From Synechococcus sp. CCY 0621 (GTDB lineage Bacteria > Cyanobacteriota > Cyanobacteriia > PCC-6307 > Cyanobiaceae), in NCBI RefSeq assembly GCF_019038465.1, contig NZ_JAFKRH010000031.1, positions 186,001 through 250,000 of the forward strand: a stretch of 64,000 nt of DNA. Direction: 5' to 3'. Below, piece after piece: positions 2,950 through 8,177 of the stretch; position 1 is the first letter of the stretch; each line of letters begins with the position of its first letter. The notes under the pieces are model-generated. The model was given only the letters and a program-made list of their open reading frames with translations, ran no database searches and had not been told where the DNA came from. The translations under genes and the position numbers were made by a program.

Positions 2950-4143
2950 CTACCCAGGCGCTGCGGCGACGCTGCGGAGCGCCTCCTCCAGGGCCGTCGG
3001 CAGGCCGGCCAGATCGGCCGGGCTGAGCCAGGGTCCCAGGCTGATGCGCAGGCCGCTGGCGGCCTCCTCGGGGCTGTAGCCCATGGCAAGCAGCACGGCA
3101 CTGGCGCCCGGAGCCCCGCGACTGGTGCAGGCCGACCCACTGCTGACGGCGTAACCCCGCCGGGCCAGTTCGCGCACCAGCCGGCGTCCAGGCAGCGGTC
3201 GGCCATCCGGTCCAGACACCAGCAGGCTGATGTGATGGGGCAAGCGTCCACAGGGATCTGCCGGTGCCGGCCCGCTGAGGCGCACCCCCTCGAGGGCCAG
3301 CAGCCTCTCCAGCAGCCGGTCCCGCAGGGACCCGATCGGGTCCTCACCGCCATGGGCCGCAAGGCGCTGCCGGGCCAGCTCCAGGGCCGCCGCGAATCCG
3401 GCCACCAGGGCCACGGGCTCGGTGCCGCCACGACGCCCCCCCTCCTGCGCGCCGCCGATCAGGGGCTCCAGTTCGAGCCCGTGACGCACCAGCAGGGCGC
3501 CGACGCCGCGGGGACCCTGCAGCTTGTGGGCCGCGCAGCTGAGCAGGTCGACCGGCAGCTGGCGGAAGTCAACGGGTTGGTGGCCCACCACCTGCACCGC
3601 GTCCACATGCAGCAGCACGCCGGCCTGGCGGCAGAGCTGACCGATGCTGGTGATCGGTTGGAGCGTGCCCACCTCGCTCTGTCCCCAGAGGATCGACACC
3701 AGGCGGGTCGGCGGCACCAGCAGCTCCTGGAGGGCCTCCAGGTCGACCAGACCACGGCCATCCACCGGCAGCAGCTGCCGCTGCCAACCCCGCCTCTCCA
3801 TGGCGGCGGCGGCCGCGTAGCTGGCGGGATGCTCCACGGCCGAGAGCAGCACCCGCCCGGGCTCCAGGCAGCCGGCGCAGCCAATCAGGGCCGTGTGGAT
3901 GGCTTCGCTCCCTCCCGACAGAAGCACCAGTTCGTCCCGGTCGCAGCCCAGCTGCTCCGCGATCGCCAGGCGGTCGCGCTCCAGCCGGTCCGCTGCCGCC
4001 AGCCCGAAGCCATGCAGGCTGGAGGGATTGGCCCAGGCCTGCCGATGGGCCTGGGCCATGGCCTCGAGCACCTCAGGCGCCGGGGGGCTGGTGGCGCAGG
4101 CATCGAGGTAGACCCCAGGGGCTTCAGGGGGTAGGGGAGGCAT
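2950..4143 (-). CDS. Cysteine desulfurase, NifS/IscS family
   Basis: A PLP-dependent enzyme of 397 residues that takes sulfur from cysteine for Fe-S cluster or thiocofactor synthesis. The N-terminus VYLDACATSPPAPEVLEAM matches the family opening. The PLP lysine lies in SCAAHKLQGPRGVGAL and the persulfide-forming cysteine in SSGSACTSRGAP. The frame is open further upstream, but the ATG at 4143 gives the correct N-terminus and reduces the overlap with dapF to 20 bp. The 20-bp overlap suggests coupled translation with dapF, whose product carries an unusual four-cysteine tail. Confidence 0.92.
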   Translation of the reverse strand: MPPLPPEAPGVYLDACATSPPAPEVLEAMAQAHRQAWANPSSLHGFGLAAADRLERDRLAIAEQLGCDRDELVLLSGGSEAIHTALIGCAGCLEPGRVLLSAVEHPASYAAAAAMERRGWQRQLLPVDGRGLVDLEALQELLVPPTRLVSILWGQSEVGTLQPITSIGQLCRQAGVLLHVDAVQVVGHQPVDFRQLPVDLLSCAAHKLQGPRGVGALLVRHGLELEPLIGGAQEGGRRGGTEPVALVAGFAAALELARQRLAAHGGEDPIGSLRDRLLERLLALEGVRLSGPAPADPCGRLPHHISLLVSGPDGRPLPGRRLVRELARRGYAVSSGSACTSRGAPGASAVLLAMGYSPEEAASGLRISLGPWLSPADLAGLPTALEEALRSVAAAPG

Positions 4144-5233
4144 CGCGGGAGAGGCGTCCCAGGGTGCGGGATTCCAGGGACTCTCCGGCCAGGGCCACCA
4201 GATCATCAAGGGAGCGACCCTCCAGCAGGGCCGTGACCCGGGCCCGGGCGTCGGCACTGGCACAGGCCTCGGGGCGGAGGCAACCGTTGACGCACGCCGT
4301 GGCGCAATCAATGCTGGCCGCCGCCGGAGCCGTCTCGACAAGGGCCGGTGGGGCGTCTGCCATTCCGAACAGGGAGGGGGCCACCACCCCGTCGAACACC
4401 GCCTCGGCAGGACCGGTCATGAACACGTGCCCGCTGGCCTCATCCCAGTCGATCTCCAGGGGTCCGCCGGGCAGATCGAGCCGGGCCTGGCGGTCGGCCA
4501 GACCCAGCAGGTGGCAGGCCACCAGGGTGGCGCAGGCGCCGGTGCCACAGGCCAGGGTGGGCCCGGCCCCCCGCTCCCACACCCGCATCACCAGGTGGTC
4601 GGGAGCGATCACCTCAACGAAATGGACATTGGTGCGGGCTGGAAAGGCCTCGTGCACCTCCAGGGCGGCACCCAGGGTGTCCAGATCGATGGCTGCCACG
4701 TCGTCGACCGGGACCACGGCATGGGGATTGCCCATGCCGGCGGCCGCCACGGCCAGGGGCTGGCCCAGCACCTCCAGCACACCCACCGGCAGCCCCTCCA
4801 CCCCGACGTCAAGGGCGGTGGGAATGGTCTCCGGCGTCAGAAAGGGTGCGCCCATGTCGACGCGGATGCGCCCGTCTTCGGCCAGGGCCGGCACGATGCG
4901 ACCGGCCAGGGTCTCGACCTCCCAGCGACGGGGGGCGACGTCACCGTCGCTGTCGGCCAGGAACCGGGCCAGACAACGGATGCCGTTGCCGCACATCTCG
5001 GGCTCGGTGCCATCGGCATTGAAGATGCGCATGCGCAGCTCGCCTCCCTCCCGGGGCGGCAGGGCCAGGATCACGCCATCGCCACCGACCCCGAAACGAC
5101 GGTCGCAGAGCCGCTGCACCCGCTCGGGCGTCAATCCGAAGGTGTCCTCAGAATCCCCTAAGCTGCGGCCGTCCAGCAGCAAGAAGTCATTCCCAAGACC
5201 CTGGTATTTGCTGAATTGGAGCACCTTGAGCAC
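4124..5233 (-). CDS. dapF: Diaminopimelate epimerase with C-terminal cysteine-motif extension
   Basis: Converts LL- to meso-diaminopimelate for lysine and peptidoglycan synthesis. The N-terminus FSKYQGLGNDFLLLDGR and both catalytic cysteine motifs are present: EMCGNGIRCLARF (Cys near 81) and LACGTGACATL (Cys near 229). The start chosen is GTG at 5233; it follows an AGGA and avoids overlap with hfq. The ATG at 5311 would overlap hfq. The protein is about 369 residues, roughly 80 longer than ordinary DapF. After the normal end (VFDGVVAPSLFG) comes an in-frame tail with C-x3-C-x3-C-x5-C (CATACVNGCLRPEAC) and a helix containing RSLDDLVALAGESL. This looks like a fused small domain; an internal ATG at 4363 could also produce it separately. 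Confidence 0.9.
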   Translation of the reverse strand: MLKVLQFSKYQGLGNDFLLLDGRSLGDSEDTFGLTPERVQRLCDRRFGVGGDGVILALPPREGGELRMRIFNADGTEPEMCGNGIRCLARFLADSDGDVAPRRWEVETLAGRIVPALAEDGRIRVDMGAPFLTPETIPTALDVGVEGLPVGVLEVLGQPLAVAAAGMGNPHAVVPVDDVAAIDLDTLGAALEVHEAFPARTNVHFVEVIAPDHLVMRVWERGAGPTLACGTGACATLVACHLLGLADRQARLDLPGGPLEIDWDEASGHVFMTGPAEAVFDGVVAPSLFGMADAPPALVETAPAAASIDCATACVNGCLRPEACASADARARVTALLEGRSLDDLVALAGESLESRTLGRLSRDASPTP

Positions 5234-5267: not shown

Positions 5268-5507
5268 ATGCAGAGTTTCTTTGAACGACGGGGGCCCAGG
5301 CTCGACACCACACTGCCGAGTGTGCGCCATGTTCAGGAGCTGATCCGCATCCGCACACCCGTGAACGTCGTGCTGCTCTCCGGACAGGAGTGTGACGGTG
5401 TGATCCGCTGGCAGGACAGCCATTTTCTGGCCATGAGCACTGAACCAGGCACCCCTCTGCTGTTGATCAGCCTGGCGGCGATCGCCTCGCTGCGCGCCCT
5501 CAGCTGA
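5268..5507 (+). CDS. hfq: Hfq-like Sm-fold protein, cyanobacterial type
   Basis: A 79-residue protein matching cyanobacterial Hfq. The Sm1-like part runs LPSVRHVQELIRIRTPVNVVLL and GVIRWQDSHFLAM; the Sm2-like part is LLLISLAAIASLRAL. Cyanobacterial Hfq differs from enterobacterial Hfq at RNA-contacting residues and is tied to motility and pilus function in Synechocystis (family knowledge). It is divergent from dapF with a very short shared upstream region (34 bp to the chosen GTG) and lies 45 bp upstream of leuS. Confidence 0.85.
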   Translation: MQSFFERRGPRLDTTLPSVRHVQELIRIRTPVNVVLLSGQECDGVIRWQDSHFLAMSTEPGTPLLLISLAAIASLRALS

Positions 5508-5552: not shown

Positions 5553-8177
5553 GTGACAGACCCCTCCCGCTACCGTCCCGAGACGATTGAGCAGCGCTGG
5601 CAACGGCAGTGGGAGCAACTGGGACTCCACGCCACGCCTGACCTCAGCGGTGACAGCAGCGACGCCTACTACGCCCTGTCGATGTTCCCCTATCCCTCGG
5701 GGAGCCTGCACATGGGCCATGTGCGGAATTACGTGATCACCGACGTCATCGCCCGGGCGGCCCGCTTGCGGGGCCGGCAGGTGCTTCACCCCATGGGCTG
5801 GGACGCCTTCGGTCTGCCGGCGGAGAACGCCGCCATAGAGCGGGGAGTCGACCCCGGCGACTGGACCGACCGCAACATCGCCCAGATGCGCGAGCAGCTC
5901 AAGCGCCTGGGCCTGTCGATCGACTGGGACCGGGAAGTGGCCACCTGCCACGCCGATTACTACCGCTGGACCCAGTGGCTGTTCCTGCAGTTCCTGGATG
6001 CCGGCCTGGCCTACCGCAAGGAGGCGACGGTCAACTGGGACCCGATTGACCAGACGGTGCTCGCCAACGAACAGGTGGATGCCGAGGGGCGCTCCTGGCG
6101 CTCCGGCGCCCAGGTGGAGAAGCGCCGGCTGCGCCAGTGGTTCCTCAAGATCACCGCCTATGCCGATGCCCTGCTCGACGATCTCCCCTCCCTGGAGGGC
6201 TGGCCGGAGCGGGTGCGCACGATGCAGGCCAACTGGATCGGCCGCTCCCTCGGGGCCGAGCTGACCTTCACGGCCGAATCAGGGGAGACCATCACCGTGT
6301 TCACCACCCGGCCCGACACGATCTACGGGGCCACCTATGTGGTGCTGGCGCCGGAGCATCCCCTGGTGGCGGAGCTCACCACGGACGACTGCCGCCTTTC
6401 GGTGGCCGCCTTCTGCGATCTGGTCGGCCGCCAGAGTGAGCAGGAGCGAACAGCCGAGGACCGGCCCAAGCGCGGCGTACCCATCGGCGCCTGGGTGCAC
6501 AACCCCGCCAGCGGCGAGAGGATTCCCGTCTGGATCGCCGACTACGTGCTGGCCGACTACGGCACCGGTGCCGTGATGGGGGTGCCGGCCCACGACCATC
6601 GCGACTTCAGCTTTGCCCGCCAGTACGAACTGCCGGTGCTACGGGTGGTGATCCCCGAGGGTTCCGACCCGCACGCCTACGAGGGCCAGGCCTGGACCGA
6701 AGCCGGCGTGCTGATCGGCTCCGGTCCCTTCGACGGCCTGACCACCGCCGAGGCCAAAACCAGCATCGTTGCCAGCGCCGAAGCCCAGGGCTGGGGCCAG
6801 GGACGGGTGCAATACCGATTGCGCGACTGGCTGATCTCCCGCCAGCGCTACTGGGGCTGCCCCATCCCCGTGATCCACTGCGACAGCTGCGGTGTGGTGC
6901 CGGTCCCCGACGACCAGCTGCCGGTGGAACTGCCCCGGAACATCCCCCTGAGTGGCAAGGGGGGCACCCCCCTGGCCAAGTTGGCGTCGTGGGTGAACGT
7001 GGCCTGCCCCTGTTGCGGCGCCCCCGCCCAGCGGGAGACGGACACCATGGACACCTTCATGTGCTCGTCCTGGTACTACCTGCGCTACAGCGACCCCCAC
7101 AACGACCAGAGACCGTTCGGCCGCGAGGCCGTCGACCGCTGGTTGCCCGTGGATCAGTACGTGGGCGGCATCGAGCACGCCATCCTGCACCTGCTCTATT
7201 CCCGCTTCTTCACCAAGGTGCTGCGGGACCGGGGCCTGCTGGGCTTTTCCGAACCCTTCGCCCGCCTGCTCACCCAGGGCATGGTGCAGGGCATCACCTA
7301 CCGCAACGCCCACACCGGCCAGTACGTGGCGCCGGCCCAGGTGGCCGACCCCAGCGACCCCCGCGACCCGATCAACGGCGAGGTGCTGGAGGTGTTCTAC
7401 GAAAAGATGTCCAAGTCGAAGCACAACGGCGTCGATCCGGCGGTGGTCATCGACCGCTACGGCGCCGACACGGCCCGCATGTTCATCCTGTTCAAGGCGC
7501 CGCCCGAGAAGGATCTGGAGTGGGACGACGCCGACGTGGAAGGCCAGTACCGCTTCCTGCAGCGCCTCTGGCGCCTGGTGGACGGGGCCCACGGCCGGGG
7601 CCTGCGCCTGACTGGCTCTGGGGCGCCATCGACGCAGGAGCTCGATCCCACCTCCTTCAGCGACGCAGAGCGGCAGCTGAGGCGGGCGGTCCACACGGCC
7701 ATCGCCGCCATCAGTGAAGACCTGGAGGGGGAGCTCCAGCTGAACACCGCCGTCTCGGAGCTGATGAAGCTCAGCAACGCCCTGGCCGCCCATCTGGAAG
7801 GGTCCGGCCCGGCGGTGGGCCGCGAGGCGCTCGCCACCCTGCTGATCCTGCTGGCCCCCTTCGCGCCCCACCTGGCCGAGGAGCTGTGGCAGAAGCTCAA
7901 CGGCCACGGGGATGGGGCGAGCGTGGAGGCGGCGGCGAGTGTCCATCGCCAGCGCTGGCCCGCCGTGGACCCGACCGCGCTGGTTCGCGACACGATCCCC
8001 CTGGTGATCCAGGTGAAGGGCAAGATGCGCGGCAGCCTCGAGGTGCCCGCCGACGCCGATGCGGCCACCCTGGAACGCCTGGCCCTGGAGAGCGAGGTGG
8101 CCCAGCGCTGGCTGGAGGGTCAGCCACCCCGGCGGGTGATCGTGGTGCCCGGCAAGCTCGTCAACCTGGTGCCCTGA
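5553..8177 (+). CDS. leuS: Leucyl-tRNA synthetase
   Basis: A class I aminoacyl-tRNA synthetase of 874 residues charging tRNA-Leu. The HIGH-type signature is in [16 protein letters not shown] and the KMSKS loop in [14 protein letters not shown]. Between them is the CP1 editing domain ([31 protein letters not shown]). The C-terminal anticodon-binding and small terminal domains are complete. The start is GTG at 5553, giving [17 protein letters not shown], typical of the family. Its 3' end overlaps the convergent S-formylglutathione hydrolase gene by 17 bp. Confidence 0.98.

Follow-up and report, generated by a model that had tools for sequence, protein, structure and literature searches.

Small proteins with four conserved cysteines have been described from bacteria, among them the cyanobacterial NsiR6, later named NblD. 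Diaminopimelate epimerase (DapF) has two cysteines that are catalytic. The accessible part of PMC5296763 describes this catalytic role and reports that the DapF of Corynebacterium glutamicum loses activity when its two catalytic cysteines form a disulfide; a DapF that responds to redox state is therefore plausible. GapB is an enzyme in which a CP12-derived C-terminal extension confers redox control (PMC3906501, accessible part), and given this precedent, a redox tail formed from a fused small cysteine protein is possible.

In this report, we analyze a dapF gene whose frame runs on into a four-cysteine tail. It lies in what we call the window, the whole 64,000-nucleotide stretch of DNA that was analyzed. 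The features of the locus are as follows.

4382..5233, minus strand: DapF core (diaminopimelate epimerase), matched by TIGR00652 and PF01678
4307..4381, minus strand: end of DapF and variable linker (dN/dS 0.485, variable length)
4262..4306, minus strand: four-cysteine cassette C-x3-C-x3-C-x5-C, CATACVNGCLRPEAC (alignments, dN/dS 0.061, all-or-none pattern)
4142..4255, minus strand: predicted helical hairpin, SLDDLVALAGESL... (AlphaFold2, dN/dS 0.133)
4124..4126, minus strand: stop codon of the fused gene (ORF list)
2950..4143, minus strand: cysteine-desulfurase-like (class V aminotransferase) gene (PF00266, 198.3 bits)
5268..5507, plus strand: divergent cyanobacterial Hfq-related gene (PF21979 Hfq_1, 63.7 bits)
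5553..8177, plus strand: putative leuS, next in the block leuS-hfq-dapF-nifS (ORF; order as in family loci and in genome G046)

The fused gene is an open frame of 369 codons (5233-4127); the GTG at 5233 is the start chosen in an earlier, sequence-only reading of the locus, and the same frame extends to 5311. Residues 6-284 match TIGR00652 in an NCBIfam search with 278.7 bits, above the cut-off of 114.65, and PF01678 is also matched by the core in a Pfam search. The catalytic-cysteine motifs MCGNG and ACGTGA are both present in the core. All 71 family rows in the set used for the DapF tree, the window's included, have both cysteines, but the rows had been picked through an ACGTGA-type motif and the MCGNG count alone is independent. 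Beyond the TIGR00652 match, 85 residues remain. They include C310, C314, C318 and C324 in CATACVNGCLRPEAC, spaced C-x3-C-x3-C-x5-C, and a predicted helical hairpin (AlphaFold2). The in-frame tail, its cysteine spacing and helix, and a 20-bp overlap with a NifS-type gene, whose ATG is at 4143 against the fused gene's end at 4124, had all been noticed in the sequence-only reading and were borne out. On the other side of dapF, the frame at 5553..8177 presumably encodes LeuS. The Hfq-related gene also stands beside dapF in 14 of 20 DapF loci from outside the family (L157-L176) at E<=1e-4, which suggests an old gene pair.

As in GapB, a small cysteine protein has been acquired at the C-terminus of an enzyme (PMC3906501, accessible part), but CP12 has two separate cysteine pairs, whereas the window's tail has four cysteines within 15 residues, and these are lost as a set. 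No sequence relation of the tail to CP12 is visible by eye. By the same kind of comparison, neither the N- and C-terminal cysteine pairs nor the AWD_VEE motif given for CP12 in the accessible description (PMC3906501) is found in the tail. NsiR6 is likewise a small cyanobacterial protein with four conserved cysteines, but its first pair forms CPVC (PMC5126843, accessible part), a motif that the tail lacks. CysX of Corynebacterium, a small four-cysteine protein proposed to be an Fe-S carrier, has the motif CPYC-x14-19-WxCxxC (PMC1266029, accessible part), unlike the spacing in the window. The C. glutamicum DapF shares the two catalytic cysteines and is redox-sensitive, but the accessible part of PMC5296763 mentions no four-cysteine tail. 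An unnamed stand-alone four-cysteine protein has the same C-x3-C-x3-C-x5-C spacing, the same glycine before the third cysteine and the same SLDxM helix thereafter. It differs from the window's copy in not being fused and in having, mostly, a W-V/I-x-P end that the window's copy lacks.

Our preferred reading, which we hold tentatively, is that the tail is a formerly separate protein consisting of a metal or Fe-S cassette and a docking hairpin, and that it tunes DapF to redox or metal status. The evidence on this reading and on its alternatives is presented below.

A search with the tail alone, which the sequence-only reading had proposed, returned matches at E<=0.01 in 53 of 60 genomes, the window's own included, and in 203 of 400 genomes of the window's family. 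From its genome sizes and content, this family is presumably the one that includes Synechococcus, Cyanobium and Prochlorococcus. The profile A1, built from 21 sequences, was then run against 386 genomes of the phylum and matched 139 at E<=0.001. Within the window's family (31 of the 139), the match lies in frames of at least 380 aa; in other families (108 of the 139), all 108 matches are stand-alone, in frames of 67-139 aa. Judged by sequence, the window's tail is clearly a homologue of a small stand-alone cyanobacterial four-cysteine protein, and the resemblance suspected earlier is thereby upheld. A scan of a genome collection found 410 relatives, the best 80 of which are all in genera that we take to be cyanobacterial. 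No family model of Pfam, PHROGs or PADLOC matches the tail or the stand-alone proteins; in NCBIfam, the stand-alone proteins match no model, and the whole fused protein matches none for the tail. Phage and plasmid records contain no match to the stand-alone protein L050, and viral contigs contain none to the set A2.

When searches are combined, the gene is present in 18 of the 23 other-family genomes of the 60-genome set, the copy in G045 being fused. Four of the others (G040, G041, G043 and G052) have no match at E<=1, and G056 has a chance-level match (E 0.75) that is interrupted by a stop. Because 5 of these 23 genomes are without it, the small gene is not universal; that it is missing from some complete genomes counts against our preferred reading.

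The stand-alone proteins and the window's tail share an SLDxM-type helical hairpin downstream of the cysteines, according to alignments and to models of modest confidence. Every sequence aligned in sets A1 and A3 has all four cysteines and the glycine before the third; this glycine is missing from many g28/g57 fused tails that retain the four cysteines. All 97 loci counted for the motif have C-x3-C-x3-C-x5-C, but the motif was the selection criterion. A variant in G048 (L130, around 1500; a single-contig genome of 4.7 Mb) has a longer loop between the third and fourth cysteines, C-x3-C-x3-C-x10-C. In G577 (L237, frame from 2835, plus strand), a stand-alone protein without any cysteine keeps the hairpin and a PPKWVMPED end. 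The W-V/I-x-P end is found in 89 of 96 stand-alone proteins and in the fused G045, and it is not defining, because 7 of the 96 are without the pattern. In 85 of 89 family tails, no tryptophan occurs in the last 30 residues, and the other 4 have a DPWQ end instead.

For the extent of the fusion, 110 DapF C-termini were read (30 from the window's genus, 75 from other genera of the family and 5 from outside), a sample picked for spread and not random; its counts omit L192 (G074) and L155 (G012, with DapF cut at a contig end). The four-cysteine tail is present in 72 of the 110, namely 71 in the family and G045, the helix without the cysteine set in 18, and no tail element in 20. Among the last, 16 are in the family, of which G080 is at a contig end, and 14 of these 16 come from genomes of 1.3-1.9 Mb, several of them incomplete. 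The earlier question of whether relatives have the tail fused, separate or absent thus has a divided answer: it is fused in the family, stand-alone outside it apart from G045, and absent in some members of both.

The sequence-only reading had allowed that a sequencing error might hide a stop codon between the two parts. The window's own assembly, G000, consists of 101 contigs. All 30 loci from the window's genus have the fused frame, and many further genera of the family share it; it is also present in genomes assembled as a single contig, for example G020 and G023. Because the same frame recurs across assemblies, single-contig ones included, neither an overlooked stop nor a frameshift can account for it. 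A chance open frame is also at odds with the tail's dN/dS of 0.06-0.13, so an artefact of either kind can practically be dismissed. The fusion is real and widespread. Titles and the beginnings of abstracts in the open-licence literature yielded no description of the fusion or of the small family; small hypothetical proteins are listed in PMC2823733 (accessible part).

Two genomes from outside the family bear on how the fusion arose. G045 (L034) is fused. In G046 (L040), dapF ends with a TAG at 5998-6000, and the ATG of the small gene lies at 6013, in frame and 12 nt past the stop; a NifS-like gene follows the small gene, and leuS and hfq are also at the locus. From the state in G046, a fusion could arise by loss of the stop alone, or a fused gene could revert to it. 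The DapF tree places G045 and G046 among other families. In the NifS tree, they likewise fall outside the family, and a single clade of dapF-linked copies is rejected (p-AU 0.02), which weighs against our preferred reading. Two fusions, or one fusion and one split, are both compatible with the trees. The NifS tree gives no support to the idea that the gene block originated once.

Elsewhere, the stand-alone gene keeps away from dapF: it lies on another contig or more than 200 kb away in 32 of the 32 outside genomes in which both were matched, a count to which G045 and G046 do not belong. This separation speaks against the tuning of DapF and makes it nearly as likely that the domain is a passenger that does an old job unrelated to DapF and was fused through adjacency and stop loss. 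A passenger would also fit a loose linker of 23-90 residues and the lack of a DapF cysteine that covaries with the tail. However, a large part of the family has retained the fusion, the hairpin is under strong selection, and there is little sign of another copy to do an old job. No genome of the phylum-wide A1 search (386 genomes) has a second copy at E<=0.001, and two tail matches at E<=0.01 occur in 10 of the 203 matching family genomes. These ten are G010, G076, G141, G148, G158, G224, G295, G299, G313 and G350; the second match is strong in G299, where it lies in a 378-aa frame, and weak in G010.

The commonest neighbor of the stand-alone gene is mnmE, which functions in tRNA U34 modification. 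It was found in 46 of 97 loci (L033-L129; the first is L055 and the last L129) and not seen in the remaining loci of the 97, with one member assigned by Pfam and the rest by clustering. It is located upstream on the opposite strand, adjoining in 42 loci, and mostly in Nostocales. A nadA gene (quinolinate synthase) lies one or two genes downstream on the same strand in L063 (by Pfam) and in L101, L107 and L110 (by clustering). A QueG-like gene follows in the same direction in L053 (by Pfam) and in L054 and L091 (by clustering).

The gene that overlaps the fused dapF belongs to the class V aminotransferases by PF00266 (198.3 bits). Its best NCBIfam match is TIGR03402 (NifS) with 287.8 bits, below the cut-off of 530.75, and its scores against all 25 NCBIfam models listed for it stay below the respective cut-offs. 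From the overlap, the sequence-only reading had taken a hint that the tail might receive sulfur or an Fe-S cluster from this enzyme. Such an acceptor role might seem attractive, since in 93 of 96 family loci the gene immediately after dapF is NifS-like and either overlaps it or starts no more than 200 bp away; about 10 further family loci, with a DapF end that the search pattern missed, are outside this count. Of the other 3, L025 and L224 end too early, and L231 is without a NifS-like gene. Outside the family, G046 has a NifS-like gene behind the small gene, and the fused G045 has one about 1.5 kb downstream. However, the adjacency persists in family members that are without the tail or without its cysteines. 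Near the stand-alone gene, apart from G046, a NifS-like gene was found in 1 of 95 loci (L084), as a weak match three genes off, and in 20 loci from outside the family none lies within about 4 kb of dapF. Because the adjacency occurs without the tail or cysteines and is rare near stand-alone genes, the overlap cannot be taken as a sign that the tail receives sulfur. The earlier hint falls away, and we regard an acceptor role as highly improbable.

Selection distinguishes the parts of the fused protein. Pooled over 11 pairs from the window's genus, dN/dS comes to 0.061 in the cysteine part and 0.133 in the helix, compared with 0.090 in the DapF core and 0.485 in the linker. The tail is therefore held about as strictly as the enzyme, and the linker is loose; in 71 family tails, 23-90 residues (median 48) separate the MTGPA motif from the first cysteine. 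An AlphaFold2 model of the window's tail has a mean pLDDT of 64.6, and its helices span residues 34-46 and 49-71 of the tail. The corresponding model of the stand-alone L050 has a mean of 75.2, helices at 23-35 and 38-54, and 18 residues at 90 or above. Confidence in the cysteine region is low in both models, which is a point against our preferred reading. With the L050 model, Foldseek returned no PDB match at E<=10, and sequence searches of the PDB gave chance-level matches. Thus, against our preferred reading, no family, PDB-sequence or fold match indicates a metal or a function.

Among 90 helix-bearing fused tails (G161 being counted as one with four cysteines), 72 have the four-cysteine set, 18 have zero or one cysteine, and 0 have two or three. 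Cysteine conservation, which the sequence-only reading had singled out as a check, therefore held for 72 of the 90 tails and failed for 18. The 72 comprise 70 that are exactly C-x3-C-x3-C-x5-C and 2 that carry one extra cysteine. Of the 18, 10 have no cysteine and 8 have one; the lone cysteine is at the fourth position in 6 of these 8, namely the six that were aligned. On the tree of DapF cores, the cysteine set changes 9 times, 7 of them forced by well-supported branches. This tree consists of 71 family cores with the window's genus thinned to 8 rows and one row without a state, and it omits 12 tail-less genomes (mostly long-branched) and L023 (short). The count of changes is blind to gain versus loss, and we read the changes as repeated loss because the stand-alone proteins possess the set. 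The hairpin is still under selection after the cysteines are gone: dN/dS in six cysteine-less pairs is 0.056 for the helix, 0.065 for the core and 0.384 for the linker, and in eight four-cysteine pairs from the same genera it is 0.046, 0.071 and 0.294.

The simplest reading of these patterns is that the domain consists of one four-ligand site and a hairpin with a job of its own. Binding of an Fe-S cluster is compatible with the all-or-none pattern. Against a single site, set loss could also result from single deletions or from fast decay after disuse, and 8 of the 18 tails have retained one cysteine. A further possibility is a disulfide switch in the manner of CP12 on GapB, in which cysteine pairs would open and close DapF without a metal. 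Disulfide inactivation of the C. glutamicum enzyme (PMC5296763, accessible part) and the CP12-derived extension of GapB (PMC3906501, accessible part) lend this some appeal. However, two independent pairs should leave intermediates with two cysteines, none of the 90 tails has two or three, and the CP12 motifs are absent by eye, so we judge such a switch unlikely. Within the core, no convincing covariation of DapF cysteines with the tail cysteines was found in the 71-row tree set, which tells against our preferred reading. An extra core cysteine at reference position 241 occurs in 15 of 49 four-cysteine rows and in none of the others, and looks lineage-bound.

To return to our preferred reading, the following sequence of events would account for the locus. 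A formerly separate small protein would have come to lie behind dapF and then been fused to it; the neighboring and the fused states are both seen, and the direction between them is presumed. The N-terminal four-cysteine cassette would act as a unit, most likely as a single metal or Fe-S site, and the helical hairpin would work independently, most likely as a docking surface. The tail, loosely tethered, would most likely sit on or near DapF and tune it to redox or metal status; of all the steps, this one is the least secure. A lineage with no further need of the sensing part would drop the cysteines as a set and keep the hairpin. Repeated loss of the set beside a retained hairpin suggests a module for metal binding or redox that can be switched, and we infer both that it binds a metal and that it acts on DapF.

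A broader version of this proposal, which we consider rather doubtful, is that the small protein is a widespread metal- or Fe-S-sensing adaptor through which DapF, and with it the supply of diaminopimelate (for lysine and peptidoglycan), is coupled to redox or iron status. In picocyanobacteria it would have become hard-wired, its sensing half pruned many times and its docking half kept.

This work reveals a conserved cyanobacterial protein family that has no model in the libraries searched. It also reveals a natural experiment on the function of this family, as in several lineages the cysteine set is gone while selection has maintained the hairpin. Should DapF prove to be controlled by the tail, redox or metal status would be linked to the supply of cell wall and lysine, probably in picocyanobacteria of oceans and lakes.
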